This document shows, one piece after another, positions 13,601 to 32,519 of a DNA stretch of 38,680 nt. How positions within the stretch are numbered: the stretch's first letter is position 1; every line of letters begins with the position of its first letter. The notes beneath the pieces were generated by a model, which was not told where the DNA came from, made no database searches, and saw only the letters and a program-made list of their open reading frames with translations. The position numbers and the translations under genes are program-made. This DNA comes from a virus, in the IMG/VR virus record IMGVR_UViG_3300000117_000064, positions 1 through 38,680 of that record, one strand, 5' to 3'.

Positions 13601-16600
13601 TCGTTGGTTTCTCAAGTCAGGACCCAGAAGATCGTTACGGTATCAGGTGGGGTTTAGAGTATTCTAGGTATGACTATCCTTTTGGTTTTAGACAAGGGCC
13701 TGGACCTTGGGATCCTAGGTGTAATGATCCTGACAGGGGAGGTTTCCAAATGATAGGTCAAAATTTTACAGGGGCTGGAAACCCGTTTCATATTGATTTA
13801 GATCCTTCAGGCGCTTGGGATCCAGGACGGGCCGTAAACAATATTCCTTCCTGGTTTACAGCCGCAGGATTTGAGCTTGTTCCCAATTCTCGCTTTGCAG
13901 GTACTGGAGCAGATCTGGTTAAAAGGGATAGATCCCTATCGTTCTGGACTACTGCCGCCGATGGAAGGTGGATTGTAAACAGAGGCATAGATGTTGAGGT
14001 TGAAGCTGTGTATGGGTTGGACGCTGTGAGTTCTACTCTTTCCCCCGTTCCTGCTATCCTGGCAATTGAGCCTGGGGCTATGGTTGATGTTAATTGTGCT
14101 ATATCAGGAGTCGATGAGGTTGGCCGTATAGCAGAACAAGCTTGGTATTTGCAGCGTGAATACAATGCTACTGATAGGTATTTTTTCGATTGCGACTACT
14201 CTAAGTGCGGCGAGGGGCATTTTTTGTATCTTCAGACCTTGAGCGGAGTATACCAAGGATGTACTTTTGATTATTGTACAGGACAGGCTATACAAAATCG
14301 TTATGATATAGGTAAGACCGCTCCAGTGGCAACAAAGCCTACGACTATATTAGTAAAAGATTCTCACCTTTATAATTGCGGCGGGCATGAAGTAATATTC
14401 AAACATGGTGGAAAAGGAAGAGTTGATAATCAACCAGTGATTTACGAACCTGGAGAAAAGAACTTCAATCCTGGAGGCTCTTGGACATCTTACAATATTA
14501 CTTTACAGAATCATGGTAGTACAGAGTTCCCTGCGAAGCATATTGTGGAAGATAGCACTCTTATTCAGAATGCTGATTATGTTTATATGTCTTCCTCGAC
14601 GCCTGGGTACTCTAACTGGGATAGCATGAGCCCAGAAGCTAGAATAGCAGCAGCTAGTGAGCCAAACCGAGGAGGAAGAAAGTCTTGGAGGGGTTTACTA
14701 AGCGCAGTGAAGACTAGACCTTCTAGCCCTTTGCATGTTGTAAGGTTCCCAACAAGAACAGTTCCTACGTTTGGGGATTTGGCTACTATAAACCCAGGCC
14801 CGGAAGACCAGGAAACTGTAGTAGTTGAAGATACGGGGGATCTTTATTATTATACCGGAGGGGGACCTTATGAAATTATTGATGGGTTTCCTTCTTGGAA
14901 GCATTTCCCTGATGCAGAGTTTGGTTATACAAGGTCCCATGTAAAATTAGCTAATAATTTATTTTTCTTCATACAAGCTCATTCGAACCAAAATCAGATG
15001 AAGATACAACAAGCCAAGCTTCTTGAAATTAAACACAATTGTTTTATTTATGATAGGGGTGCAGGTAATGCTACTGGGGGTGCGTTTAATGGTGTGCGGA
15101 GTGATATTTCGTGCAAAATTGACGGCAATCCTGAAGATAAGCTTTGGGATGAAGACTTCAATCACCTATCAACTAGTAGTATTCAAATAAGTAACAATGT
15201 AGCCAGTGCGCGTAACGGGGCTACAGCAGGTATAAAATTCACAATTTATGATTCTCAGTTTTGGGATAATAAAAATAAGTATACTACAGATCCAAATAAA
15301 CCCTTTAACTTGAATTCCACAAATGGACCATTTGCAATTTTAACCCCCAAAATAATAGGTCAAGAAAATGTAGGTCGAACTTGGGATATACAAAGAACCA
15401 AAATGAAATACTCTCCTCCAGGGTATGTTGTAGGAGGAGTGTTTACACCTACTAATGATTGGGAAGACGTAAATGTGGCGGACTCTGCTCAGCACAGAAA
15501 AAACTTAATTGAAGCTGCTTTAGAAAATGGCCGAGTAGAGAATGCTATAACAGCAGCGTTTATAAGAAATGAGTCCTGGGAGCAGTTCAAAAATTCTACC
15601 GATAGAGCGAATGAAACTTTTACAGCTTCTGGGGATGATGGGGTATTCTTTACTGATCGTCCGTATAATGTAAGCATTGATGGTGCTTATCCTACTGCTT
15701 CTACTGGTTCAGGTCCTAGGTTAGAACCTCCTTCTACTTTAAATCCTCCTCCTGCTATATCTGGGGAGTTTCCTCCGAATAATTCTACAGGAGTTTATAC
15801 AGACATAACGGATCTTTCGTGGAACCCTAACGGTCTTACTGATACTTATGATGTGTACTTCGGCACCTCTACCTCTCCTCCTTTGGTAGGTGACGACCAA
15901 ACAGCAACTACTTATGATCCTGGTACTTTAGCTACAAATACAACGTATTACTGGCGTGTAGATGGTGAAAATGTAAACGGAGTTACTGTTGGAACTGAGT
16001 TTAGTTTTACTACAGGAGGACCAGCACCTCCCGCTCCTGGACAGTCAACGAACCCCAACCCGGCATACGATGCAACGGATGTAGCAAGAAACCAAACGCT
16101 TACTTGGGACGCTCCAGCAGTAACTGGGAGTGAGGGTCCTGCTGAAAGATACGATATTTATTTCTCTAAAACTTCTGATTGGGACGGAAACAATCTTGTA
16201 AATTCAAACACAAGTATGCTTTCTTACACCCCTAGCACAATGCAATATCTTCAAGAGTATACTTGGCGTGTAGACGCTAAGAATATTTCTGGAACTACTA
16301 CAGGTGTTGAATGGACATTTACAGTAGAAGACGCTCCTCCCCCTCCTGGAGTTCCTACTGATATTGTCCCTGCCAACGGAGCAACGCTAGTTGATATAAA
16401 CCAATTGCTTAGTTGGACTGCTCCTGTCGAGTCTCCGGGGAATGGTCCTGTTGTAGACTATAAGGTATATCTTACCGATCAGCCTACTGGTCCCGTAGGA
16501 ACCGATTCTATAGGCACTACCTCTAATACCTTCATCGACCCAGGCACCTTAGAGTATGATACACCTTACAGGTGGTCTGTTTTTGCCAGGGGTGTTCCTG

Positions 16601-19600
16601 ATGCCAATGGTAACCCTCAAAGTACATCTACCGGGCCTAAGACTTTTAGAACAGCGGAGGCTCCAGGGCCCCCTGATGTGGTTACTGATAGACTACCCAG
16701 TGCTGGTTCCACTGATGTTGAAACTAATGTTACTCTTTCTTGGGTAGAGCCGACAACGGGAGGGCCTTTAGTAGACTATTCCCTTTACTTTGATACTGCC
16801 GCTAATTGGAATCCTAATGTAACTGGGCCTACAGAAATACTTCCTGCGGGAACAACGTCATGGAATCCTGGCTACCTATTAGAACAAGACACTCTTTATA
16901 GGTGGGCAATTATAAGTAGAGGGGTTATTGTAAACGGTGTTCGTCAAACAGCTAACCCAGGAAGCATAACCTTTAGAACTGAGACAATAGCCCCAGACCC
17001 GCCTGGAATTCCTGGAAACCTGACTCCCGCAGATGGAGAAATTGATGTTTCGATCAATCAAACTCTTTCTTGGTCTACCCCTACGGAAGGCCCTGTCGAT
17101 GAGTATGATGTTTACTTCAAAGCACCTGGAGGGTTTCTTGAGCTAGTAACTACTACTACAGACTTATATTATGATCCTGGTACGCTACTTTATTATGGAA
17201 CCTATTCTTGGAAGATTGTAGCTAGAGGTTCTGGAGGAGAAAGTGAGTCTAGTGTTCAGACGTTCCGAACGATCAGCCTCCCCGATCCCGGTGGTCCGTT
17301 AGGGTTACCCAGTGCTGTAAGTATAGGTAAGCCATCTAATACTACAGAAGCTCCTGTTTGGTCTGATCTTACTTGGTTAGCATCTAATAATACTTCTTCC
17401 TATGAAGTATTCCTAGACACTTCTGCTTCCCCTTCTACTTCTTTAGGGGTAACTGAGAGCACGTTCTTAGAATTAGATAACCTGGATTCTAATACTACTT
17501 ACTATTGGCGTGTAGATTCTACAAACGTAAACGGTACAACTACTGGTAATGAGTTTACTTTTGCAACGGGTGACCAAGCCGTACCCGCCCCAGTAACATT
17601 AGGAATACCTAATGGGCCAGAAAAAACACTTACAAATCTTTCCCTTTCTTGGAGACCTGCTGAGGACGCTGAGTCTTATGATGTATACCTAGACGAAGTA
17701 TCTCCTCCTAGTACTCTTTTAGGAAACGCTAAAACTACTTATATTGATGCTACTGATCTAAAGTACGGTACTACTTACTTTTGGGAAGCTGTAGCCAAAA
17801 ACAAAGAAGGTGAGACTAGTGGAACTGAATTTTCGTTTTCCACGATAGGTTCCGCTCCTCCGGGGTCTGTTGTTTCTGGCGCTCCTGACGATACAACTAA
17901 CGTTGAAATTAACACTCCTTTGTCTTGGTTAGCTGCTTCTGCTACTACAGACTATAAGGTATATCTGGACACTTCTTCTTCTCCTAGCAGTTTAGTAGGA
18001 ACTACCAGTACTACTGTTTTAGAAATACAAGAGCTTGAATACTCTACTACTTATTATTGGCGCGTAGATACGGTAGGATTAGGAGGGTCTAATACTGGAA
18101 CACAATTTTCTTTTACTACTAGAGATCCTGATCCTCCTGCGTCTGTTACTTTTGGCGTACCTAACGGTGTGTCTGGAGTAAACGTAGCTACTGATCTTGT
18201 TTGGGGAGCGTCTCCTTCAGCCACCACGTACAGAGTTTACCTTGATTCCTCTTCTCCGGCTACTACTTTAGTTGGAACTACTTCTAATACTTTTCTAGAT
18301 GTTGATGATTTAGATCCTAGTACTACGTATAATTGGAGAGTAGACGCTGGCAACTTAGGAGGATATACTACTGGTAGTGGCTTTAGCTTTACTACTGAGG
18401 TACTTCCAGATGTGGTCACTGGAGGTGCTCCTAACTTACAATTCGATGTTCCTATTAATGGCACAGTTCTTCAGTGGATCGAGGCTTCTGAAGCAGAAGA
18501 TTACCTCGTTTATTTTGGGATTAACCCAGAGGATTTGGATCTTGTAGGAATTACTAGTCAGACTCAGTTTCCTTTACAGCCTTTAAGGTATGGAACTACT
18601 TATTATTGGAAAGTTACTTCTAGAAACGGTGGAGGCACAACTGTTATGCCTTTTGAGTGGATGTTCCAAACAGAAAGTGAACCTATTATACCTGCCAAAG
18701 TAAACCGTAGAGATTTGCGCCGTAGAAACTTTGCTAAGGTTCTTCCCAAAGAAAGCTATTATGAGCGAACAGGACATAATGCTCCTGTTTCTTGGGACGT
18801 ATCTACCTTAGAGAATAGTTACGTTAGTAGTTTAGGAGAGATGCCTTTAGGGTACGTAGCCAGTGCTGGTACATTCCACCCTGTAGTGGATCCTATCGTA
18901 CCTTCTGGAGTATGGCACCACTGTGAAGGATTGAACTCCTCTAGTATCTTCTCTGGAGTATCTACCAGTGCTACGTTCCCTTATCGAGGTATCACTGAAC
19001 TAGGTGAAGGCTCACAGTATGTTGACCGCTGCCAGACTCCAGATATCTACATTACTATGCATGAGCTTCTAGAGCTAAAGGCTAGGGATTATGCTAAAGA
19101 AATTATAGAAGCTTCGGCAGAGCAGTATGCTGATGAAGATTATTGGAAAGAGAACATAGTAAGCTTAGCTAACTCAGCTATTGACACTGGTTATGTTCTT
19201 AACAGCTTTAGTGAATACGAGAACTTTAGTTTTGGGCTTGGACTTCACAAGCTCTTCACGGCCTACAGTAAGTATTTCTTGAACCACGGAACTAGCCCTT
19301 ACTTCTGGGATAAGACTGGGGGAAACGTCTTCGCTCATGTATTTGGCAAAGGTCTTTACAACTGTGATTTCAAAAATAAAGGAGCCGGATATGCGCTCCC
19401 AGACGGAAGAAGTTTCTTTGCTTCTAGTGTAGATTCTGGTTTATCTATAAACTCTGATACTGTTTGGTTAGAATCTAGTACAGAAAGAAACAATCTGATT
19501 TCTGATTCAGGCAGCGTGGGGGAAGTTCTTGAAAATCCTACTTGGATTACACTCAATCCCGCTACCTACGAAGAGGAAGAAGGAGTACTGCACGTACTTC

Positions 19601-21336
19601 CTGGAGCCAACTCTCCAATAGGGAGCCAGGATGCTACCTTACTACAAATATACACTGATAGTTTAAACCCTCCCGATCCTGGTGATCCACTTGGTTTTGC
19701 TCCTATGCATATAAGCCAGGAGTTTGATATTTCTCAAATTAGTAGACAAGGAAATCAGCAGCCGTTGCTTTTCTCTGTATACTTCAAAAAGGTTTTGGCG
19801 GAAAACACGGAAGCTAACGACCCAGAACTAAACCAATTCAAACTTCGTTGTGGGTTGGGAGTACCTGGAGACCCTTACAGAGAAGACGTTTCTGTGACAT
19901 GGGATCAAGAAACAGGAGCCCTTGTTACCTTTACTGTTTCTGCTACGGAAGGTTCTTATAGTCTTGATAATGTTACTTCTGACGCAGAAGAAACGAATAA
20001 CGGATGGTTTAGAGCTAAAGTACTGTTAGTAGACTTTAGTAATGATTCACCTAATGGGTATATAGAAATGACTCCTTATCCAAATGCATATGTAGAAGGT
20101 ATGGCAGGAATATCTTACTCTACTATTTGGGGACCTCAATGTGTTGTTGGTCAAGAAGCACAACAAATAACACAAGGAGGAGGAACTTATGTGGCCTCAG
20201 GTAGCAACGAGGTTGTGGTGCCTCTTTTCGACACCTATATTTCAGGAAACCCGTATAATGCTGAATTCCGTAACTCTAGTATTCTTGATGGAGTAGGGTT
20301 TACAGACACTTCAGGCGCTCCTAGCACGAACGAGTTCAAGATTTTCCGTATAGACAAGTCCAAGAAAATTCCTGACCAAGAAAATTTCTTAATTGATAAT
20401 ACGTTTATTAAATCCAAATCCTTAGGAGGCTTCCCAAGAATGAGGTTTGAAGTAAGCGATAATGTAGGCAACTTTAACCGTTTTCCAAAAGACCATAAGT
20501 TCCGCATGGATGTTTCCGCTCTAATCGCTGATGAGAAAACAAAGTTCATTGGTGGCGGGCAGATGGGAGTATGGATCCATACTGAGCCCATTCAAGGGTA
20601 CTTCTGGAGTTTCACTCCTAATGGTTGGACTCCAATGAAGACTACTGACGTAAGCCGAGAGCAGGTTATAGGTCAATGGTCGCATATCTACAACTTCGAG
20701 AGCAGAGAGTTAGTAGGTACGGGTAGCACTTGCCTGAACACTCTTATTCAGGCAGCTACTGGGGTGGATAATGTAAACTTTAATACCATTAAAGAAGAGT
20801 ACTTCGATACTTTCTCTGTTGAGTTCGACACTAGGAACTGGACCAAGATGAATGGTAGTGAGTACCTTGATGTTATTCCTACTACAGAAGAATTCTATAA
20901 GGTAATGGAGCAGGTAAACCTGGACACCGCAAATTATGTTGTAGAAGTGTTTATGGTGCCTAACAATAACGTAGACAAGTACCTTGTTATTGATAACATA
21001 GAACTACATAACCTTACTATGAGGGATTGGGCAGGAATAGGTACTGGGCATGGAATAGAGACCTCTGGTACTCCACTTACTCCTTTCGTTTTTGAGAACA
21101 AGCTTCTTCTAAATAAACCTCAATTAGCAAGCGTTCTGAAGTTCTATAATGGTATGACTGGAAAAGCTGCTGGCGAGTATACAACAAACCTCAACTCTAG
21201 AGATGCTACTATAACTTCAGATATTCACGAAAGTAAAGGAGGCTCAAGGCTGAACTACCGCATATCTCCTGAGTGGGTGGATAATACTAAGGACGTTGAT
21301 CACGGAAATTACGAAGAAGTGGAGTTCGATAACTAA
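10621..21336 (+). CDS. Giant baseplate-anchored adhesin: gpI/gp7-like N-terminus, beta-helix, ten FN3-like repeats, CBM-like domain
   Basis: An in-frame TTG at 10618 exists, but the ATG at 10621 in a TGATG overlap is the likelier start, giving 3571 aa. Residues 1-400 resemble tail protein gpI/T4 gp7-type proteins: NCPEEYLQYIAQLIGWRL (331 on), W-R-x-Q-L-R-x-A-V-D-L-Y-K-K-S-G-T-x-G-A-I, ending near 384. Residues about 1155-1580 are short strands with stacked Asn/Cys turns, a probable right-handed beta-helix. Residues 1716-2684 hold ten FN3-like repeats, each with an early Trp and a Y-x-W-R-V-type strand (second Trp at 1778, 1882, 1985, 2095, 2197, 2296, 2388, 2480, 2572, 2663). Residue 2694 on starts with a basic RRDLRRRNF segment. 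Residues about 3051-3173 look like a phage CBM-like sandwich (FSVYFKK ... GWFRAKV ... IWGPQ). It probably links baseplate to receptor binding. No frame break is seen. Confidence 0.7.
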   Translation: MGRKYTKRNFGEYLEALVPELYTVEDINLSGLELDPALDIINRHISLADQCSTFLSVSAISGDPETERLDSISGISQFFVKQNALTKVSPFDLETKILLPLGFTLADYGSRTEFIEAISENIMPLLVPATQTDSSNLENNISTLSALTESTDASSVHNYLVDSLGWFYFLNTSADGGLDYSPSSYVLSAFGDVFEGKTLETVDGIKGLTEYLWRNVAASGSFAQFIPEDYVSGTADANVEASAGEVATYTSGIQKLDAIKTMMDVVYSPLYLDSTDTKVRDSFDSFIDAGIKQTEKVASGPMTKFLRIMGYSVTDISDEVEGIGLLYDIENCPEEYLQYIAQLIGWRLRGNAPSKWRHQLRTAVDLYKKSGTLGAIQAAINTLITDSVFDVSGKASELWESYLPHLVWYALGTESPLFKDLTTWTADKALLGQIYSYSSSSVEENLKIVTDQILLDLYKAFPQNFRYCEELMPVPRFFGLDKQGCEEEEVYTLVGEPDMLPFRVIRPEDGGYQAQRKVAITNGEEAAWDASLSEGPLGYGVYLKGLERTPGERPEYLKFRGDLTFLFNYRNKVNWPLPPFEEIKYYRDSITSGGMIKLLVERLKCFQVREEFAEWLGSFITEATLTDDSNLGSLNEWLMFFPEQQEALNFNDVVLNPSDYQRNLIDLFNGKSSHLFIDFDETDFDFSKTTLEGDGKYALYEAARISREFSPAHTITRVNLNASAIDDYDADADMRSFIGLKSTDGYEGYASGAVLSNFESSGVAGTSTFGRDDVDNIYDSYLSSTTVFEPLPETPASYNPNNFIVAHDYVNTAKEDFESFHLEKRANRDGRVNIYGKDFMYSRNYLNQRNNRHIEDDEFVVENDSQGSPSGIVFGPFDFEIAIGQDAPLFRKNGNRPNGQVDSWGFSRLGIKYTFQNQASYDYFLDYNPRYNFRYNPDIYEDAFNLSGFDWIWPSNGYYAPMRGTRTLDQPNLTMYFMPPGRSQADFQEIVNMFVGFSSQDPEDRYGIRWGLEYSRYDYPFGFRQGPGPWDPRCNDPDRGGFQMIGQNFTGAGNPFHIDLDPSGAWDPGRAVNNIPSWFTAAGFELVPNSRFAGTGADLVKRDRSLSFWTTAADGRWIVNRGIDVEVEAVYGLDAVSSTLSPVPAILAIEPGAMVDVNCAISGVDEVGRIAEQAWYLQREYNATDRYFFDCDYSKCGEGHFLYLQTLSGVYQGCTFDYCTGQAIQNRYDIGKTAPVATKPTTILVKDSHLYNCGGHEVIFKHGGKGRVDNQPVIYEPGEKNFNPGGSWTSYNITLQNHGSTEFPAKHIVEDSTLIQNADYVYMSSSTPGYSNWDSMSPEARIAAASEPNRGGRKSWRGLLSAVKTRPSSPLHVVRFPTRTVPTFGDLATINPGPEDQETVVVEDTGDLYYYTGGGPYEIIDGFPSWKHFPDAEFGYTRSHVKLANNLFFFIQAHSNQNQMKIQQAKLLEIKHNCFIYDRGAGNATGGAFNGVRSDISCKIDGNPEDKLWDEDFNHLSTSSIQISNNVASARNGATAGIKFTIYDSQFWDNKNKYTTDPNKPFNLNSTNGPFAILTPKIIGQENVGRTWDIQRTKMKYSPPGYVVGGVFTPTNDWEDVNVADSAQHRKNLIEAALENGRVENAITAAFIRNESWEQFKNSTDRANETFTASGDDGVFFTDRPYNVSIDGAYPTASTGSGPRLEPPSTLNPPPAISGEFPPNNSTGVYTDITDLSWNPNGLTDTYDVYFGTSTSPPLVGDDQTATTYDPGTLATNTTYYWRVDGENVNGVTVGTEFSFTTGGPAPPAPGQSTNPNPAYDATDVARNQTLTWDAPAVTGSEGPAERYDIYFSKTSDWDGNNLVNSNTSMLSYTPSTMQYLQEYTWRVDAKNISGTTTGVEWTFTVEDAPPPPGVPTDIVPANGATLVDINQLLSWTAPVESPGNGPVVDYKVYLTDQPTGPVGTDSIGTTSNTFIDPGTLEYDTPYRWSVFARGVPDANGNPQSTSTGPKTFRTAEAPGPPDVVTDRLPSAGSTDVETNVTLSWVEPTTGGPLVDYSLYFDTAANWNPNVTGPTEILPAGTTSWNPGYLLEQDTLYRWAIISRGVIVNGVRQTANPGSITFRTETIAPDPPGIPGNLTPADGEIDVSINQTLSWSTPTEGPVDEYDVYFKAPGGFLELVTTTTDLYYDPGTLLYYGTYSWKIVARGSGGESESSVQTFRTISLPDPGGPLGLPSAVSIGKPSNTTEAPVWSDLTWLASNNTSSYEVFLDTSASPSTSLGVTESTFLELDNLDSNTTYYWRVDSTNVNGTTTGNEFTFATGDQAVPAPVTLGIPNGPEKTLTNLSLSWRPAEDAESYDVYLDEVSPPSTLLGNAKTTYIDATDLKYGTTYFWEAVAKNKEGETSGTEFSFSTIGSAPPGSVVSGAPDDTTNVEINTPLSWLAASATTDYKVYLDTSSSPSSLVGTTSTTVLEIQELEYSTTYYWRVDTVGLGGSNTGTQFSFTTRDPDPPASVTFGVPNGVSGVNVATDLVWGASPSATTYRVYLDSSSPATTLVGTTSNTFLDVDDLDPSTTYNWRVDAGNLGGYTTGSGFSFTTEVLPDVVTGGAPNLQFDVPINGTVLQWIEASEAEDYLVYFGINPEDLDLVGITSQTQFPLQPLRYGTTYYWKVTSRNGGGTTVMPFEWMFQTESEPIIPAKVNRRDLRRRNFAKVLPKESYYERTGHNAPVSWDVSTLENSYVSSLGEMPLGYVASAGTFHPVVDPIVPSGVWHHCEGLNSSSIFSGVSTSATFPYRGITELGEGSQYVDRCQTPDIYITMHELLELKARDYAKEIIEASAEQYADEDYWKENIVSLANSAIDTGYVLNSFSEYENFSFGLGLHKLFTAYSKYFLNHGTSPYFWDKTGGNVFAHVFGKGLYNCDFKNKGAGYALPDGRSFFASSVDSGLSINSDTVWLESSTERNNLISDSGSVGEVLENPTWITLNPATYEEEEGVLHVLPGANSPIGSQDATLLQIYTDSLNPPDPGDPLGFAPMHISQEFDISQISRQGNQQPLLFSVYFKKVLAENTEANDPELNQFKLRCGLGVPGDPYREDVSVTWDQETGALVTFTVSATEGSYSLDNVTSDAEETNNGWFRAKVLLVDFSNDSPNGYIEMTPYPNAYVEGMAGISYSTIWGPQCVVGQEAQQITQGGGTYVASGSNEVVVPLFDTYISGNPYNAEFRNSSILDGVGFTDTSGAPSTNEFKIFRIDKSKKIPDQENFLIDNTFIKSKSLGGFPRMRFEVSDNVGNFNRFPKDHKFRMDVSALIADEKTKFIGGGQMGVWIHTEPIQGYFWSFTPNGWTPMKTTDVSREQVIGQWSHIYNFESRELVGTGSTCLNTLIQAATGVDNVNFNTIKEEYFDTFSVEFDTRNWTKMNGSEYLDVIPTTEEFYKVMEQVNLDTANYVVEVFMVPNNNVDKYLVIDNIELHNLTMRDWAGIGTGHGIETSGTPLTPFVFENKLLLNKPQLASVLKFYNGMTGKAAGEYTTNLNSRDATITSDIHESKGGSRLNYRISPEWVDNTKDVDHGNYEEVEFDN
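15766..18672 (+). repeat. Tandem array of ten FN3-like domain repeats (coding)
   Basis: The distance between equivalent TGG codons (15952, 16264, 16573, 16903, 17209, 17506, 17782, 18058, 18334, 18607) is 312, 309, 330, 306, 297, 276, 276, 276 and 273 nt. So repeats 1-5 are long (102-110 codons) and repeats 6-10 short (91-92 codons). DNA similarity is visible around the Trp strand: the block TATTGGCGTGTAGA and nearby GTAAACGG recur with few changes between repeats 1 and 6. Linkers are Pro/Gly-rich (PPAPGQ, PPPPG, DPPG). Confidence 0.8.
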
Positions 21337-23032: not shown

Positions 23033-26000
23033 ATGACATTTAACGAAACAGATATTTATACGGCCAGCGGTAGTGTCGCTTTGTTCAACCAGTGGACTCC
23101 CACTGTACATAAATTCTCGACCGACAGCTTTTACAATTGGGAGCAGGACAACCTCCCCCTCTACGACCTTGAGGAGCGTACATACCACCTATGGGAACAA
23201 AACGGCTTCTCTACCTCTGCTGGAGTTCCTGGTCTAGCTTTAAGTGTGTCTGCTGACGCTGATGCTGATGTTTTAGCTGCCAACAGGAACGTTTTTACTG
23301 ACCTTAGTTCCTGCATCGCTGCTATCCCCAAGATCGTCCGCTTCCCTGTCCTTGTCGAGGTCGGCAGCATTGGGGATCTAGGTCCTTTAGAGCTTCACAA
23401 CTTCCGTATAGAGGAACAAGGCTCAATTGAGATTATAAATAGGGGATTTTCTCGTAGTCTAGCGGCCTCTTCCTCAGTAAACCAAGCCGAGGCTCCTGCT
23501 GACGGCTTCCTTGCTAACGCTTCACACTCTTTAGTACGTAGCCTATCAGCTATGGACGTTAGTTCCACGCTAAGCGACACTAAATTAGTACATCTTGGCA
23601 CGAATGTACTATCCTCTACGACTGACTCGCGTGTAACCAGCCTGTACTCCTGCCTTTACCCTAAAAGTAGTGATGTAAAATCGCCCCTTAGTGTGTCTTG
23701 GGATCTTCAACCCTCTGCAACAGCGAATGTCTTCTCTGTCTTACCTTACGAGCGTAGTGTTGGAGCAGAGGACACATCCATACCTTCTATGGACTTTAGT
23801 GCTTTGTCACAATCGACTGAGCTACCTATTACCCGTGTACCCATAGCTGCGGCACAAGAAGTAAATGGATGTGTTTACTTGAACCGCCTAAGCAAACTAT
23901 CAGTAAAGAACTGTGATGGTCCTATCTACATTAGAAATTTCTTTGTGGATGGAGAGCGCATAAGGGAAACTGCTATAGATGTCCTAAACTCTGATGTAGT
24001 TCTTGAGAACTGCGCTGCGGTCAGGGCTACGTTCGGATTCAAAGTAAGCAACTCCCGTGCCGTACTTTCCAGGTCTGCATTTGCGTATAGAAACTATGGA
24101 ATGTATGATGCTGCTACTCGTAAGAATAGCGGTGCTGGATTCCACTTCTTCAACTCAGAGATTACTTTAAGTGGTAACCCCATAGCTGGTTCCGCAGGAG
24201 TAGGAGACTCCTTAGCGACTAGAGAAGATACTGTATTCGTGGCATCTCGTAACTATGACGGGGTGGTACTTGACAACTCCCGTATAGTAGGAGGCTTAGA
24301 GAGAAGTTCAGCTACGAACTCAGCCACTCATAGTCTTTTTGCTTGTGAGCTAAACAACCACGCTGGAGTTTTGTTGCGTAACTCCTCTGCTGAAGTAAAG
24401 GGCCTTGTTGATTTGTATGGAAACAAAAAAGGAATCGTATCTACAAACTCTAATACCACCTTCCAGCAAATATGCCATCATGCTAATGAGGAAGTAGCTA
24501 TTCACGCTAACAACTCTCAGTTTATGTTAGATACTAGTTCCAGCTTTACTAATGCTGGGCAATCCGATAGGGCCCAGGTAGAGTTTTCTGCTAACGGACA
24601 AGACTTAGTATTGAATAACCACTCAGAGTGGTCCTTCCAACGAAAAGATGATATTCCTGGAAGCTACGGCAATGCTCGCTTCTGGGATAATCATGGTCGA
24701 GTATCCTGGGAAGGAAGTGTAAAAGCTTCTTTGCCTTCTATTAGTTTAGAAGGTGGATCAAAAGCAGAAGTGCTCCATCCTTACTTCCGTCATACCTCCT
24801 CTGATATTACTCCTCTAAACCATCCTGTGTATGGTAGGGTAGTAAAGGTTACAGGAGGATCGGAAGCATCTATGTTTGGGTCTAGTAGAGGTTGTACTTT
24901 TGCCTATGGTCCTACTGGTTACATTCGTCAACGTCAGGTGGCTGGTTTTGTAGCACAAGATAACTCCACTATACAATTCCACGGCCCTACTGCCCTGTGC
25001 CAGTTTGGCGTAGATATACTAGCAGAAAATAACTCCGTTATAAATATAAAACCTGCGGACAGTAAGGGAGGAGGCATTGATGCCAGTGGTTTTGTGTTGA
25101 GCGACACTCTAAACCATACTTCTGTAGAACTTCATTCTACTCGATCTTGCGTTGTAGTGGATAAAAACTCTACGCTCAATGCTGAGGACTTAGGATCATT
25201 TTTCCTAAATTGGGCACGTACTTCAGAAGGCCAAGCTGTTTTAGATCAGGGAGTAGATTACCGTACAGATACAATAGACTCTAGTTCTTTGACTACGCAC
25301 GGATGCCTTCAGTTCTGGCCCAACCCCCAAGAAGCCGATGTAATCTCTACTCAAAGTCTTGATGATTTAGGTTCAGCACCGTTCAGTCTTGCTGTTGGAG
25401 ACTTTCCTGTGTTCGCAGGGTTTGATGGAATAAATAGATTCTTCATCAAAGCAGAGATACTAAACACTAGTTATGGGTATGGCAATAACGATGATCACCT
25501 TTCTTATGGAGGTACTTGTGTTCGTGCTGTAAATAACTCTACTATAAACGTAAACAATGTACACTTCCCTATTGGAGGTAATGGTTCTTTTTACGACGGT
25601 CCTTTTTACACTACTGACTCCGATGAGTGTGCTCGTTTTGGCATATGGAACATAGCAGATTCTTCAAGGATGCAGTCTTCTTACTTATCAGTAAGTGGGA
25701 CGCATCCTATTAGCAGTCAGTATCATGGGCCCAGTGCCCTATGGTCTTCTTCTGTAGACGGAGTTTCTAATTCTGAAGCTCCTGGTTTCGGTGCCCCTAA
25801 ATCCACACCAGACACAGGAAGTCTTTCGGTTCTAGACGCTTTTGGTGCGGGGTCTGGGGTGTGGTCAGTAGCAAACGGAACTAGTATAAACTCACAAGGA
25901 AGGTTTTACCCAGAGAATGCAGTAGTTACTTCTATCTCAGAAGATCTTGTTGATGCAGGAGTAGCAGTTAGTTCTACTACTGCCTATTATCATTGGGGCG

Positions 26001-26548
26001 CTCCTTCAGGTACTAGTCAGAACCGTGGTCCTTTTAGGATTTACTGGTCTCCTGGAGCTTCAGCAAGACTTCTACAAACGGATTCCAGTGGATTCTATAC
26101 TGGAGGGTTTTCTGAGGTGTCTGCTGTAGTAGGACCTGCCTATCAATTAATATCTCAAAACTATTCTCTTTCTTCTGATTGTTCTGCGTTGGTTCCTGAA
26201 GGCGCTATCAACGCTAGTGGTGTGGCTCCTGAGCTTTTAAAGTGGTCAAGAGATACAGATGCTGATGGTATAGCGGATGCCTTATGGACTTCAGGTTATT
26301 ATTATACTAATGAATTCTTAGAAGAGAACCCAACCCAAGTAATGCTAGATGAGTCGGCAGCAGACGTATTTGCTAATGCTAAGAATGCATCTATTGGAAT
26401 GTCTAATAGGCCAAAGAAAGTAACTGTTTATAGGTCGCGTTTAGATTCGGAAAGCAATAGGGCTTCCGAAGCATATACAGGCGATTCATCAGATGCTGCT
26501 AGAGGGTTTAAGTCCGCTAGTGTATTTGATCTAAAGAGGGATAACTAA
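23033..26548 (+). CDS. Tail-fibre/spike-like protein with right-handed beta-helix (1171 aa)
   Basis: Starts 6 nt after the previous stop. Residues about 20-60 hold an anchor-like motif, FYNWEQDNLPLYDLEERTYH, closely resembling residues 28-50 of the next gene product. Residues about 285-690 are rich in short strands with Asn/Ser turns (VLENCAAVRATFGFKVSNS, GVLLRNSSAEV, GIVSTNSNTTFQQI, AENNSVINIKP), the look of a pectate-lyase-like beta-helix. Near the C-terminus DTDADGIAD (Asp1074, 1076, 1078, Gly1079, Asp1082) matches the D-x-D-x-D-G-x-x-D calcium loop of thrombospondin-3/EF-hand type. No glycosidase or lyase active site is recognised, so it is either a non-enzymatic receptor binder or a depolymerase I cannot see. 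A peripheral baseplate location is inferred from the shared N-terminal motif. Confidence 0.6.
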   Translation: MTFNETDIYTASGSVALFNQWTPTVHKFSTDSFYNWEQDNLPLYDLEERTYHLWEQNGFSTSAGVPGLALSVSADADADVLAANRNVFTDLSSCIAAIPKIVRFPVLVEVGSIGDLGPLELHNFRIEEQGSIEIINRGFSRSLAASSSVNQAEAPADGFLANASHSLVRSLSAMDVSSTLSDTKLVHLGTNVLSSTTDSRVTSLYSCLYPKSSDVKSPLSVSWDLQPSATANVFSVLPYERSVGAEDTSIPSMDFSALSQSTELPITRVPIAAAQEVNGCVYLNRLSKLSVKNCDGPIYIRNFFVDGERIRETAIDVLNSDVVLENCAAVRATFGFKVSNSRAVLSRSAFAYRNYGMYDAATRKNSGAGFHFFNSEITLSGNPIAGSAGVGDSLATREDTVFVASRNYDGVVLDNSRIVGGLERSSATNSATHSLFACELNNHAGVLLRNSSAEVKGLVDLYGNKKGIVSTNSNTTFQQICHHANEEVAIHANNSQFMLDTSSSFTNAGQSDRAQVEFSANGQDLVLNNHSEWSFQRKDDIPGSYGNARFWDNHGRVSWEGSVKASLPSISLEGGSKAEVLHPYFRHTSSDITPLNHPVYGRVVKVTGGSEASMFGSSRGCTFAYGPTGYIRQRQVAGFVAQDNSTIQFHGPTALCQFGVDILAENNSVINIKPADSKGGGIDASGFVLSDTLNHTSVELHSTRSCVVVDKNSTLNAEDLGSFFLNWARTSEGQAVLDQGVDYRTDTIDSSSLTTHGCLQFWPNPQEADVISTQSLDDLGSAPFSLAVGDFPVFAGFDGINRFFIKAEILNTSYGYGNNDDHLSYGGTCVRAVNNSTINVNNVHFPIGGNGSFYDGPFYTTDSDECARFGIWNIADSSRMQSSYLSVSGTHPISSQYHGPSALWSSSVDGVSNSEAPGFGAPKSTPDTGSLSVLDAFGAGSGVWSVANGTSINSQGRFYPENAVVTSISEDLVDAGVAVSSTTAYYHWGAPSGTSQNRGPFRIYWSPGASARLLQTDSSGFYTGGFSEVSAVVGPAYQLISQNYSLSSDCSALVPEGAINASGVAPELLKWSRDTDADGIADALWTSGYYYTNEFLEENPTQVMLDESAADVFANAKNASIGMSNRPKKVTVYRSRLDSESNRASEAYTGDSSDAARGFKSASVFDLKRDN

Positions 26549-29019
26549 TGTCAGAACGTATTTACAAGGACAGCAATTACAGGTTCTCAGAGCCTATTAG
26601 ATTTTTCAAAGCAAACGATCCGTATTACTTTGAGGTAGACAACATTCCTCTAAAGCAAATACAAGAGAACTGCTTATGGTTACGAGACCAGCTACGTAAC
26701 AATTCAGAGATACAGGGAGTAAAACGTCAAAACATTGATGAGTTACGTCCGTATGCTAATGGTGAGGATCGAACTGTAAAGGTAATGCCAGGACGATACA
26801 CGGCTAGGATCAACGACGCAACTAAGCGTAATCCTTTGGCGTACCTAAAGAAGGTTTCTGGTATACTTATAGGGGATGTTGATGTTTGGTCAACAGCCAC
26901 TCCTAACCAAGGTAATTTTGCTAATAATGTAATAACAGACGCAAACGCTCGTTTAGAAAATGAGTTAGAAAAATTCAAGAGTGCTTTGTCCCAAGACTCT
27001 TTAGCGATGAACGGTCTTACTGATCGTTCTTTCACTTGGCCTGTAGTCAACGCGGATACTCCTGTCAACCTAACTGGGGCGGATTACACAGGTAACGGCT
27101 ACTCTGGCCCTTCAGACAATGTTCCTGGTGGAGGAGCGCAATATTCTCCTGCCCTTATACAACAGGCTCTTTTATGGGCTAAAAGCCAGAATTCATCAGC
27201 TTCAGAGTTTGCTTTAACTAGCTTTGAGTACACCAGTGTCAACCAAGGGTTCTCTAAACTTCCTCGTACTGAGGCTTACTTCGTCAAAGCTTGGAGGGGT
27301 ATAGCACGTAACGCTATTGTAGACGTTCCTGAGGAGCTTTCTATTGAGGTTCCCCAGTTCTCTACATCAGACTTCCAATACATTGACGAGGATGGAGTAG
27401 AGCAGGACGTAGCAGGGGTAGAGAGCCGCATTGATATGGTGTTTATTTATTCTAAGCCTATTGATGCTGATTCTTCAGAAATTCTAACTCCTACGGGTAG
27501 GCAAACTATCAGTACGCCTACTTTAGGTATTGTACGGGGTGCTGGCATTAAGGTACGGTTTGACGAAACCAGCGACTACACTCGTCAGCATTTAGTTGAC
27601 ATGGGTGATGAGAACCGTATGGTTGCTTCTCCTGGAGATGCTGCTAATGAGAATATTGGTTTTACAGCGGGCTCTAATAACGACGTAGCTTTCGATGTAC
27701 GGGGATCTTTTCCCGCCCCAGACGATCTTCTTAATGTTGCCCCTCTAATATCTGAGAGACTACAGGATGAAGCTATGGAATTAGTAGGACAAAGCATTCT
27801 TCCTGTAGCTTACGTTTGGGTACAGAATGGTACTCAGGTCGTCCTATCTACCGATGTTATTGATATTCGTCCTATGTTTCGTACTGCTGAATTAGCATAC
27901 AACGAGCGTGCTGGTATTGCTGCGGCGTTCCCTCAACTTTCCTTAGCTAACCCTGCTGTAGGCAAGGCTCATTTAGATTATGAGATTAAGAAAGCACACG
28001 ATTCTTTGAACGCCAGAGTATCTACTATAGAGAGTGAAGCAGGTGCTGGTCAGGCCATGAGTACTGTAGCCACTGGGTATGTGTTTGGTGGATATTTCTT
28101 TGGACCTGAATCAGCTATGTTTGATTTTTATAAGATTCAAAACGGTTTGGATAACGTAGCCAACAACGACTCCGATGAATACATTAAAAACTATATTCGT
28201 ACCAAGTATGGGTTTGGTAACCAAAACATAAACGTAGACATTCCTAACTACCCTGACTGGGACAGAGCACAGTGGTGTATTGAACAAAACATAGACAACA
28301 AAGGAATGTATTGTAATGATTACATTAATACTTTTATGTCTCAACGGTATAACACTGATCCCGATTCTACTATCGTAGGAGGAAACATGTTAGGAGCAGT
28401 CACTGCTGCGGGTGAGAATTTATCTGGAGGCGTTCCTGAGAGAAAACGAAAGTTTGACAACGAAGGGAGAGGAGAAGTCGGCCAGTATTCCTCGGCTCAC
28501 TTCCACTACATTTCTAAAAAAATAAAATTCAATCGAGCCCAAGCTGAATGGATGGTAGACTATAACATAGATATTGATTTTGTAAACTGTTTGCCTCAAG
28601 GCTATGTTGGGGATAACCAGTGGGATCAAAATCCTTTAACTTATACTGGTCATTGGGTAGAGAAAGGTTTTGATGAGTTTACTATTTATGTGGCCTTCAC
28701 TGGGTCTCACCCTAACGCTGTAGGATCATCAACAATTAGTAGAATTCCTGCTCCTTACACCCGTACTAATGGAGTACAGGTTAGTGCTAGAGGAGACAGT
28801 AGGTTTTCTAGTTTCGCTGTCCCTGTAAGTGAGATGCTTTACTCCAATACTAACCCTATATCTAACGGAGAAGGAGTTGGTTATATCGGTAACCCTCGTA
28901 TCGGGGTTTGTACTTACCCTACTATTTCTTGGAAGATGACTGCTATTCCTCTAAACGATAGAGAGTATTATTACCCTAACCTAAACACCACTAACCCTGT
29001 AATCAATATTAAAACCTGA
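26548..29019 (+). CDS. Baseplate-attached structural protein (823 aa), fibre-network candidate
   Basis: Starts in a TAATG overlap with GAGGG about 8 nt upstream. Residues about 10-50 include FSEPIRFFKANDPYYFEVDN then IPLKQIQENCLWLRDQL, sharing the aromatic-E-x-D-N-x-P-L-x-x-x-x-E-x-x-x-x-L-W motif with the preceding fibre protein. Residues about 270-420 are a beta-rich core (RIDMVFIYSKPIDAD, LGIVRGAGIKVRFDE). Residues 455-515 are helical, with a possible short coiled coil (HLDYEIKKAHDSLNARVSTI). The C-terminus (about 640-823) is aromatic-rich and beta-like, with a W-K-M-T-x-I-P strand near the end. I do not recognise a named family. Position and motif suggest a structural element that docks at the baseplate edge next to the fibre. 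Confidence 0.45.
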   Translation: MSERIYKDSNYRFSEPIRFFKANDPYYFEVDNIPLKQIQENCLWLRDQLRNNSEIQGVKRQNIDELRPYANGEDRTVKVMPGRYTARINDATKRNPLAYLKKVSGILIGDVDVWSTATPNQGNFANNVITDANARLENELEKFKSALSQDSLAMNGLTDRSFTWPVVNADTPVNLTGADYTGNGYSGPSDNVPGGGAQYSPALIQQALLWAKSQNSSASEFALTSFEYTSVNQGFSKLPRTEAYFVKAWRGIARNAIVDVPEELSIEVPQFSTSDFQYIDEDGVEQDVAGVESRIDMVFIYSKPIDADSSEILTPTGRQTISTPTLGIVRGAGIKVRFDETSDYTRQHLVDMGDENRMVASPGDAANENIGFTAGSNNDVAFDVRGSFPAPDDLLNVAPLISERLQDEAMELVGQSILPVAYVWVQNGTQVVLSTDVIDIRPMFRTAELAYNERAGIAAAFPQLSLANPAVGKAHLDYEIKKAHDSLNARVSTIESEAGAGQAMSTVATGYVFGGYFFGPESAMFDFYKIQNGLDNVANNDSDEYIKNYIRTKYGFGNQNINVDIPNYPDWDRAQWCIEQNIDNKGMYCNDYINTFMSQRYNTDPDSTIVGGNMLGAVTAAGENLSGGVPERKRKFDNEGRGEVGQYSSAHFHYISKKIKFNRAQAEWMVDYNIDIDFVNCLPQGYVGDNQWDQNPLTYTGHWVEKGFDEFTIYVAFTGSHPNAVGSSTISRIPAPYTRTNGVQVSARGDSRFSSFAVPVSEMLYSNTNPISNGEGVGYIGNPRIGVCTYPTISWKMTAIPLNDREYYYPNLNTTNPVINIKT

Positions 29020-32000
29020 TGAGCGGTAACCAGTCCACGTTTGATTGCGGGGCCTTTCTGCCTGGGCGTGGTCCTTACAATTTTCCTGACTATAATCCTG
29101 GCGGGGGCGTTGGAGGACCCGGAGGTAACGGAGATCCTCAAGTCCCTCCTGGAGGTGCTCAACGACCCCCTACGGGAGGGGATGTCAAGAAGTGTGAGTG
29201 TAGAATTTACGATGTAGGTTCCCCAGAGTTTTTAGGGACAACACCTCCTGGTGGTAGTATTGCGGAGGAAAGAATAGGTAGAAAATTCTACAGAATTCCT
29301 TTATTTCAGAAATGTTTTGAGATTATCAATGGTCTTCCTCCTAACGATAATCAACAACAAATAGATACTCTTAGGACTGCTATAAGCAACAGACCTAAAC
29401 ACAGAGTAACGAGTACAAATGTTTTTCCTGGAGGAGAGCCTTGTGGGCCTCCTGGAGGACAATGTGATGGTCCGTGCTCTACCATATACATACATTACTT
29501 TGTAGATGATGAGAATGTCATCCCTGGTCCTACTACTCCTGGTCCTACTACTACTGGTCCTGGGAGTGGGTCTGATGATGTTTTTATGTGCAAGATAAAC
29601 AACATCTCTGGTCCAGTAAAACAAGGAGGAAGTACTGGAGGACAAGAAAACTGGTTGTTAACAATGACTCAGGAATGTGTTCGTACAACCACTCCTGCGG
29701 AAGGAGCAGCAGTCGTAGCACATAACTCATCAAAGAAGCAGGAAGCGGAAAGCACTATAGCCGCATTTTTGATAGCGTACAATGTTCCTGGAAATTACAT
29801 TCGTAGGGATCAAGGCGAGTCTGGTAAAGTATGTCAACCGGGGGTCGCTTGTGAAGAGATAACAATTAGGATAGCTTGGTTCCCTTTCACTAATTCAAAC
29901 GAGCCTATAGGCCCTGTAGCTCCTCGCCCTATATCTTCAGGTCCTTCCACTCCTCCTGGCGGCGTAGGTTCTGATAAGAATTGTCGTTGTATTATTTCCG
30001 GTCCTCCTACAGTAACAACTATAGGTACGGAAACAGTAGGAGGTGAGGTGAGAACATATAGGACCGCTACTTTCCTCCAAGAATGTACTAATGTAGATAA
30101 TATCGTCCCTCCTCCTCAAGGGAATAATAAAATAATACAGGATTTTATTTTTGCCTACAACACACCCAACACCGTATTTACAGATGTACCTTCTGCTAGG
30201 AAGTATGGAGGTAGGTGTAAAGACCCACAAGGAAACTGTACTGAGACTTGTGATTCTTATGTACTTTCTTTTTATGTAGTAAATGAAGGAGAAGGCGGTA
30301 ATACCTCAACACCTATAAATGGTGGTACTATATTTAATGGTGTAGGTGATGTGGGTGAAGACCCTGATCCTGGTGGAGGAGTAACAGGTACAACTGCTCC
30401 TGGTGGTGTTTTCCTTCCTGGGACGGTGGGTGAAGATGAAGACCCTGACCCTCCTACTTTATTTCCAAAAGGACCAAATTCGTTGAATCCTTTCACAATC
30501 GTGCCTGATAGGGTTGGAGAAGGAGGAGTTACTTCTGCTAGTGTTAATGTAAATCTAGCGCAAAACAACCTTGTAGAAAGATTATTAAACAATAATCCTT
30601 ATGGGTTGCAGGACCCAGAGATTGCCGTAGACTTTGTTGGACGTAGAACAGTATTAGTTTCTCGCGGTTATCGTGGCCCATCAGATATATGGGCAGATCA
30701 GATTGACTCCTCTGTTGATTACTTTTTGCGTAACCGTGCGGGTGATTGGGATTTCAGCATGGCTAACTCCCTAACTGCAAATAATATTAGAAGGTCTTTG
30801 AGTCCTGAGTCTAGAGAGGTTTTGGATTCTATAAGGACGTACTCAGGACAGCCCCTTAGCGATACGCAAATAATGTCTCTTATTGGAACCCGATTAATTA
30901 GAGGGGATATTAGTGAGATTACGCACAGCTTCCTTGCTGGACTACAGGCTGTTACCAAAAACAATAATGATGTTGCTCTAAAAACTAGTGGTAGTCAAGA
31001 AGCAAATGAATTAGCTGTAATACAAATGTTAGAGGCTTACTCTTTTCCTATGAACACTGAAAGTCAGGGGTGGTCTGTAGAAAAGATAAAGAACTATTCT
31101 GCATTAGCTACAGATGTAGACAGGCATCTTCTTGTTCGTTTATCAGACGAAGAAGAACCTAGAAAGGTTTACCTATCTGACTCTAATAAAGTTATTTCTA
31201 ATGTAGATACGATCAGAGTACAAGACGGTAATTTTTTTAATATAAATGTCTCTGAGGAATTAGGAATAGAATCCAATACTATTAAATTGCCTACCTCAGG
31301 GGAGGAGGACCACGTTCTACTTGTTCCTGAAAGGGTTAGACAAAAGTCCCTTAGAGCTTTGGGTGGAAATCCTTTGAGGACTTTAGAGGTGTCTAGTTCT
31401 TGGTCTGAAGATTCCATTGAGACTGATCAAGACTTGCAGAACAGTAGGCAAACATACTATTTTCTTTCCGCCAACTTAGATACCATAAACACTAAACCTA
31501 TCTATGGGTCTAGTAGGTTGCTTCATGAAACGGAAATAAATTATGAGTTTGTGGAAGTTACTAGCCAAGAAGATGTAGACTCCATCAATGAGTTTATAAA
31601 ACACAAAATAGACAACGTAGTATATATGCTAAACGACAGTGATCTTATTTTTGATTACTTAGAGCAGGGTAAGGATATAAAATTACGTCAGCAGGATATT
31701 ATTACCCGTGTCGCAAAGGGAAACAAAAGTAAATCCTTGCTCACCAGACAGATCCCTAGTTATATTTTATTAGTTCCTACTACTAGAGCAGACCTTTTAG
31801 TTTTCGATGAGACCTCTCACGTTGTAAGTTTGGAAAACGATACTATTGTTAGACAGCTTCAAGTAGATGTGAATATTTCTAAAACATTCTCCAATACCTA
31901 CAATAATCAGTTTATTAAGCAGAGCACAGTAGGTAAGTATGGAACAGATGTTTATGGAAACCAAAATACTCAAGCAAGGATTAGTTTCTTAGAAAAAGAT

Positions 32001-32519
32001 GATACCTTATATTCTGAAACCCATAGGGATTACTCAGACGGTAGGCTAAAACTAACTAGCGCACAGGAAGCAGAAGTATACAGAACCAAAACTGGAATTC
32101 GTATATTCAATGACATCGTACAAGAGTTGGACAATAACTACGGGCTAAATCTTAACGGATTAGGTAAAACCCTTACCGAGTTTGATGTATTCTCTAGATT
32201 CAATGCCCGTGAATGGTCACTTCTTGTGCGTACCGAGAACTGGGAGGAACTCAAACGTTCTTTTTATACAGGCTTGGTCAATGATGTAAGTATTACGGCG
32301 TCCTTGGATTCCTCAGACTCCCAAGTAGCTATCAGGAAGACTCATCTTATTCTAAGGAAGCCCCTTGCGGCAGAAGAAGACGCCTATCCTTCTATAAAGA
32401 CTACTGCATCAGGGTACAAGATAACTCCACCCTCAAATACAGAGCCCGCAAAGCTTACTCGTATAGAGGAAAAACAGGAAAATAAATTCCCCCAAGGCTT
32501 CAATCACATAATCCCGTAA
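29019..32519 (+). CDS. Structural protein with three cysteine-rich repeats and Pro/Gly/Thr-rich linkers (1166 aa)
   Basis: Starts in a TGATG overlap; no clear Shine-Dalgarno. The N-terminal 55 residues are Gly/Pro-rich. Three related modules follow at about residues 57-165, 188-292 and 320-423, separated by linkers such as PGPTTPGPTTTGPGSGSDD. Each has a C-x-C-x-I start, an L/F-x-Q-x-C strand in the middle and a paired-Cys turn before a final beta strand. Modules 1 and 3 have six Cys (59, 61, 99, 142, 149, 153 and 322, 324, 356, 400, 407, 411); module 2 has four (191, 220, 272, 278). Residues 425-500 form a further Gly/Pro/Asp-rich linker. Residues 500-1166 are mixed alpha/beta and unrecognised. 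It is the last gene of the long operon; no terminator is visible after it. A surface or fibre-tip role is inference. Confidence 0.5.
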   Translation: MSGNQSTFDCGAFLPGRGPYNFPDYNPGGGVGGPGGNGDPQVPPGGAQRPPTGGDVKKCECRIYDVGSPEFLGTTPPGGSIAEERIGRKFYRIPLFQKCFEIINGLPPNDNQQQIDTLRTAISNRPKHRVTSTNVFPGGEPCGPPGGQCDGPCSTIYIHYFVDDENVIPGPTTPGPTTTGPGSGSDDVFMCKINNISGPVKQGGSTGGQENWLLTMTQECVRTTTPAEGAAVVAHNSSKKQEAESTIAAFLIAYNVPGNYIRRDQGESGKVCQPGVACEEITIRIAWFPFTNSNEPIGPVAPRPISSGPSTPPGGVGSDKNCRCIISGPPTVTTIGTETVGGEVRTYRTATFLQECTNVDNIVPPPQGNNKIIQDFIFAYNTPNTVFTDVPSARKYGGRCKDPQGNCTETCDSYVLSFYVVNEGEGGNTSTPINGGTIFNGVGDVGEDPDPGGGVTGTTAPGGVFLPGTVGEDEDPDPPTLFPKGPNSLNPFTIVPDRVGEGGVTSASVNVNLAQNNLVERLLNNNPYGLQDPEIAVDFVGRRTVLVSRGYRGPSDIWADQIDSSVDYFLRNRAGDWDFSMANSLTANNIRRSLSPESREVLDSIRTYSGQPLSDTQIMSLIGTRLIRGDISEITHSFLAGLQAVTKNNNDVALKTSGSQEANELAVIQMLEAYSFPMNTESQGWSVEKIKNYSALATDVDRHLLVRLSDEEEPRKVYLSDSNKVISNVDTIRVQDGNFFNINVSEELGIESNTIKLPTSGEEDHVLLVPERVRQKSLRALGGNPLRTLEVSSSWSEDSIETDQDLQNSRQTYYFLSANLDTINTKPIYGSSRLLHETEINYEFVEVTSQEDVDSINEFIKHKIDNVVYMLNDSDLIFDYLEQGKDIKLRQQDIITRVAKGNKSKSLLTRQIPSYILLVPTTRADLLVFDETSHVVSLENDTIVRQLQVDVNISKTFSNTYNNQFIKQSTVGKYGTDVYGNQNTQARISFLEKDDTLYSETHRDYSDGRLKLTSAQEAEVYRTKTGIRIFNDIVQELDNNYGLNLNGLGKTLTEFDVFSRFNAREWSLLVRTENWEELKRSFYTGLVNDVSITASLDSSDSQVAIRKTHLILRKPLAAEEDAYPSIKTTASGYKITPPSNTEPAKLTRIEEKQENKFPQGFNHIIP
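29187..30285 (+). repeat. Three diverged repeats encoding a cysteine-rich module
   Basis: Modules start near 29187, 29580 and 29976. The second Cys of the C-x-C pair (61, 191, 324) recurs every 130 then 133 residues. Shared positions are C-x-C-x-I, an F/T-x-Q-x-C motif about 30-40 residues later, and C-x6-C-x3-C near the end (modules 1 and 3). Between modules the Pro/Thr/Gly linkers vary freely. DNA identity is low, so the duplication is old. Confidence 0.65.

Follow-up and report, generated by a model that had tools for sequence, protein, structure and literature searches.

The window analyzed here, a 38.7 kb stretch of DNA from the record of an uncultured virus (41,056 bases), encodes a protein in which a cysteine-rich module is repeated three times. 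We numbered the cysteine positions of the module C1-C6. Cysteines of this module are lost and gained pairwise and extra cysteines come in matched pairs, which strongly argues for the disulfides C1-C5, C2-C6 and C3-C4. The sequence by itself would thus reveal the connectivity, and this in a protein family not represented in any library. It is fairly likely that the product is a virion protein, a baseplate-rim or fibre-like arm that displays exchangeable disulfide-stapled modules.

Genomic context

The neighboring genes place the phage among the T4-like myoviruses. Downstream of the gene are Pfam matches to Gp23 (3.8e-80) and Peptidase_S77 (3.1e-23), and three genes further upstream in the window match baseplate wedge proteins (PHROG), presumably of the gp53, gp25 and gp6 type. 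The gp21 protease, the gp23 capsid protein and baseplate wedge genes therefore occur together, as in the structural cluster of T4-like myoviruses. By gp23 the nearest isolates are cyanophages, at only ~31% identity.

A search with gp23 found 80 related viral contigs, many of which have a homologue of the gene at the equivalent place, and a profile of its C-terminal domain added further homologues. The constant neighbors in these relatives are two large proteins upstream and gp21-gp22-gp23 downstream. With the window protein as the query there was no match in phage isolates and none directly in viral contigs, and no homologue was found in isolated phages by any search. Bacterial genomes gave no result for gp23 or the C-terminal domain. 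The gene psbA, which can hint at the host, was not found in the related contigs, which are fragments.

The two large upstream neighbors are proteins of 1171 and 823 amino acids (window positions 23033-29019) that adjoin the cysteine gene in relatives also. Their opening segments, SFYNWEQDNLPL and PYYFEVDNIPL, are alike, which suggests that their N-terminal parts are related. Further upstream, a 3572 amino acid ORF with a TTG start (10618-21336) is without a PHROG match and sits where cyanophages have their giant gp7.

Architecture of the protein

The 1166 amino acid protein is modular, with an N-terminal tag, Pro/Gly linkers, three cysteine modules, and a conserved C-terminal domain. Its parts are as follows:

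29019..32519, + strand: whole gene, an ORF of 1166 amino acids; the same gene is at the equivalent place in related contigs
29037..29093, + strand: N-terminal tag TFDCGAFLPGRGPYNFPDY, amino acids 7-25, with the lone Cys10; motif [FY]xCGxxLPGxG
29187..29510, + strand: module 1, amino acids 57-164, six cysteines (C59, C61, C99, C142, C149, C153); profile match and 35-module alignment
29511..29576, + strand: Pro/Gly/Thr-rich linker between modules 1 and 2, amino acids 165-186; P+G fraction 0.45
29577..29888, + strand: module 2, amino acids 187-290, four cysteines (C191, C220, C272, C278), without C1 and C5; profile match and context score
29889..29975, + strand: Pro/Gly/Ser-rich linker between modules 2 and 3, amino acids 291-319; P+G fraction 0.41
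29976..30287, + strand: module 3, amino acids 320-423, six cysteines (C322, C324, C356, C400, C407, C411); profile match and AlphaFold2 model
30288..30548, + strand: Gly/Pro/Asp-rich linker before the C-terminal domain, amino acids 424-510; P+G fraction 0.37
30549..32444, + strand: conserved C-terminal domain, amino acids 511-1142, cysteine-free; identity to relatives and AlphaFold2 model

All 17 cysteines are within the first 411 residues (16 in the modules, plus Cys10), and amino acids 425-1166 contain none. Almost every complete relative has a single tag per locus, located where the homologue begins. The tag cysteine is conserved and apparently unpaired in nearly all complete homologues, and might serve to join subunits or to dock onto a second protein.

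Homologues follow the same plan of tag, Pro/Gly-rich linkers, varying cysteine modules, and conserved C-terminal domain, the last with 24-37% identity between the window and 41 relatives. Among them the modules differ strongly in number and type, but the tag and the C-terminal domain are retained. Relative L079 has no cysteine modules and the window has three; L056, L059, and L067 carry more than 60 or 90 cysteines.

A probable arm on the virion

Exposed virion proteins that contact the host typically combine such a gene position, after baseplate genes and ahead of head genes, with long flexible linkers, one conserved end and a modular middle that varies rapidly. Given the gene position, the linkers and the variable middle, a baseplate-rim or fibre-like arm is therefore our best guess, and we infer the virion location from gene order. 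The C-terminal domain, perhaps together with the N-terminal tag, would anchor the protein to the virion, and the flexible Pro/Gly-rich arm would present small, exchangeable beta domains that probably serve in recognizing the host. The protein may thus be part of the equipment with which uncultured T4-like phages recognize their hosts.

The stapled modules could instead be a protective or structural element of the surface (a capsid or tail decoration, or inter-subunit cross-links as in Milano) and not receptor binders. This is the rather unlikely case. The gene does adjoin head genes, the conserved lone cysteine of the tag is a candidate cross-link, and disulfide networks have been described in virions (PMC10811340, PMC12796354), but modules that are highly variable in number and sequence, and are sometimes absent, are unlike a structural lock, and the even cysteine count per module points to internal pairs.

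The closest precedents for disulfides on a phage particle are unlike an arm of stapled modules in this last respect. In the Agrobacterium phages Milano and 7-7-1, disulfides were demonstrated in the particle (PMC10811340, PMC10491603, PMC12796354), and these phages resemble ours in having cysteine-rich structural proteins and a contractile tail. However, the bonds emphasised there mostly connect subunits of the sheath, baseplate or capsid, whereas those predicted for the window protein are within small repeated modules. An earlier note on this DNA had called disulfides unusual in phage virions, which is fair in that they are uncommon, but Milano and 7-7-1 are precedents (PMC10811340, PMC12796354).

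The gene shares with T4 gp10-gp11-gp12 a general neighborhood downstream of the baseplate wedge genes (PMC3004832). T4 gp10 has one conserved cysteine (Cys555), with a suggested bond to gp7, and the short tail fibre gp12 holds zinc by histidines and not by cysteine modules (PMC3004832). Searches of solved structures found no sequence or fold similarity between these three proteins and the window protein. The structural genes that lie between gp7/gp8 and gp13 in cyanophages such as P-SSM2 occupy a similar place after the wedge genes; a search of P-SSM2, HTVC008M and an ACG-2014f phage with the C-terminal profile gave no match.

The three modules and their fold

The modules are homologous and ~105 amino acids each. 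A test profile was built from the modules of other phages only, with the window sequence left out. It matches the window protein at amino acids 57-162 (47.6 bits), 191-284 (10.0 bits) and 320-419 (46.0 bits), which rules out a chance repeat; against the full profile, module 2 has an E-value of 2.7e-9. The three-fold cysteine module described in the earlier note is thus real, and modules 1 and 3 have the six cysteines given there, arranged as C-x-C, a central C, and C-x6-C-x3-C.

Module 2 was said to have lost the first cysteine of C-x-C and the last one of the cluster. The former is indeed gone, but the other missing cysteine is the middle one of the cluster (the equivalent of C149 and C407) and not the last (C153 and C411). 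The spacing of the module 2 cluster is C-x5-C, not C-x6-C. C278 aligns with the column of the last cysteine in a 35-row MAFFT alignment and also in a profile alignment without the window sequence, and, like C153 and C411 in the six-cysteine modules, it directly precedes the final beta strand. A residue-context score that ignores cysteines, and that re-identifies known C6 sites in 29/29 cases and C5 sites in 25/29, assigns the last cysteine to C6 in 5/5 four-cysteine modules. By eye, relative L099 has CGGQCDAI in module 1 vs PGGTCDPI in module 2. Alignment, strand spacing and residue context agree, and we therefore conclude that module 2 lost the pair C1 and C5. A MAFFT alignment of the three window modules alone misplaced the cluster and was replaced by the 35-module alignment.

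AlphaFold2 gave a confident model of module 3 with mean pLDDT 90.8 from 35 rows; a two-module alignment for structure prediction was too gappy and was set aside. The model has strands at residues 3-7, 12-21, 24-33, 35-39, 66-70 and 95-103 and a helix at 50-61. Foldseek (threshold E<0.001) found no match to this fold in the PDB (best E 0.31, TM 0.34). The C-terminal domain was likewise modeled confidently, with pLDDT 87.8 and pTM 0.88, and was also without a match at E<0.001, the best being E 0.14 in the PDB and E 0.02 with TM 0.05 among the predicted viral structures of BFVD. The 35 cysteine modules have no credible match in Pfam and none among PDB sequences, and the module region has none in PHROG; the module is outside any known family, as the earlier note had it. 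The module family and both folds appear to be undescribed in the libraries searched.

Cysteines change in pairs

For the cysteine counts we aligned 35 modules and added 6 later, for a total of 41. All six cysteines are present in 29/35 aligned modules, exactly C1 and C5 are missing from 5/35, and C5 is displaced in 1/35. C2, C3, C4, and C6 are present in 35/35 and no module is without C1 alone. The cysteine count is even in 40/41 modules (34/35 aligned and 6/6 later), the exception being a module of L095 with seven. That joint loss points to a disulfide, as had been proposed, is thus borne out for C1 and C5, absent from the same five modules. The hypergeometric odds of this co-absence are 1 in 324,632 in a calculation that ignores kinship.

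Cysteines are gained and lost in pairs, the behavior looked for in a disulfide domain, and the states are graded. Modules of L105 and L106 keep C3 and C4 alone and retain the profile match; four-cysteine modules have C2 and C6 in addition, six-cysteine modules also C1 and C5, and eight-cysteine modules two extra cysteines. An extra cysteine before C3 is found in nine modules, and 9/9 also have one after C6. The offsets (11/10, 12/12, 10/11, 5/4, 13/14, 11/10, 11/10, 7/6 and 11/10) are correlated (r=0.96, permutation p=0.002) and fit bonds across two antiparallel strands. In the window, the predicted pairs would be 59-149, 61-153 and 99-142 in module 1, 191-278 and 220-272 in module 2, and 322-407, 324-411 and 356-400 in module 3. 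Re-pairing after a loss could mislead this connectivity. The pairing C3-C6 with C2-C4, first suggested by strand register, was rejected since the two-cysteine modules keep C3 and C4.

The pairwise pattern might be mere inheritance from one four-cysteine and one eight-cysteine ancestor, with little bearing on bonding. We consider this improbable. The test does not reject one clade for the four-cysteine state (p-AU 0.28) or, though barely, for the eight-cysteine state (p-AU 0.09), but on the best tree these states need four and seven changes, respectively. A single ancestor also leaves unexplained why the extra pairs sit at differing yet matched offsets (from 5/4 and 7/6 through 10/11, 11/10 and 12/12 to 13/14), and the two-cysteine modules are a third state.

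Even less probable are the pairs of the earlier note, in which C59 bonds C153, C322 bonds C411 and module 2 lost that pair. C1 is lost together with one cluster cysteine, and just four residues separate C5 from C6, which makes re-pairing after a loss conceivable. Co-variation nevertheless speaks against these pairs: C6, the last cluster cysteine, is kept in 35/35 aligned modules, including the five without C1, so that homologues lose one partner and not the other, and the surviving cysteine is the one that the context score assigns to C6. The earlier note had also raised metal binding, but that the cysteines hold a metal such as zinc in place of disulfides is the least credible reading, for although C-x-C and C-x3-C spacings are found in metal sites and phage proteins fold in the reducing cytoplasm, a four-ligand site would be expected to vanish whole, and the counts go in steps of two (2, 4, 6, and 8), some modules retain just two cysteines, and the extra pairs are in register on paired strands.

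Proposed staples and their maturation

With the pairing C1-C5, C2-C6 and C3-C4, the mostly-beta module would be held by three staples, and module 2 would be a naturally occurring form that lacks the one between C1 and C5. The C3-C4 staple may be the only one in some relatives, and others may have a fourth that joins strand 3 to the last strand. Since the module is kept with anything from one to four predicted staples, its folding is probably independent of them. The staples probably form once the particle meets an oxidising environment; we infer this oxidation and its timing, as well as the receptor role. A search for an Erv1/Alr oxidase gave no match, and neither did the control search.

A broader reading is that the module is a new phage domain family of unsolved fold, with one to four graded disulfides on a virion arm that are stapled only after release. 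We propose it tentatively, at slightly under an even chance. If one scaffold naturally carries anywhere from one to four disulfides, it becomes testable how staples are added in evolution, and also how disulfide-rich phage proteins made in a reducing cytoplasm mature.

Other cysteine-rich repeats in relatives

A second type of repeat is present in relatives. It is shorter, has four cysteines, ends in C-x3-C and is without a Pfam match; a Kunitz-type identity was considered and dropped for lack of Pfam support. We saw it in L067 (3-4400, with many copies), L128 (4756-6000), L007 (3773-4400), L056 (1645-3900), L059 (1566-3900), L029 (3676-4425) and L034 (1356-2402). It seems to be inserted within a long module in L029 and L034. 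The arm of L042 (1815-2900) and L108 (4837-6000) holds a different, larger cysteine-rich insert in place of the studied module.

The tag-bearing frame has no initial ATG in L050, L056, L059, L104, L105 and L106; its first codon is GTG, TTG or a different one. Gene calling that accepts only ATG would therefore miss the cysteine modules.
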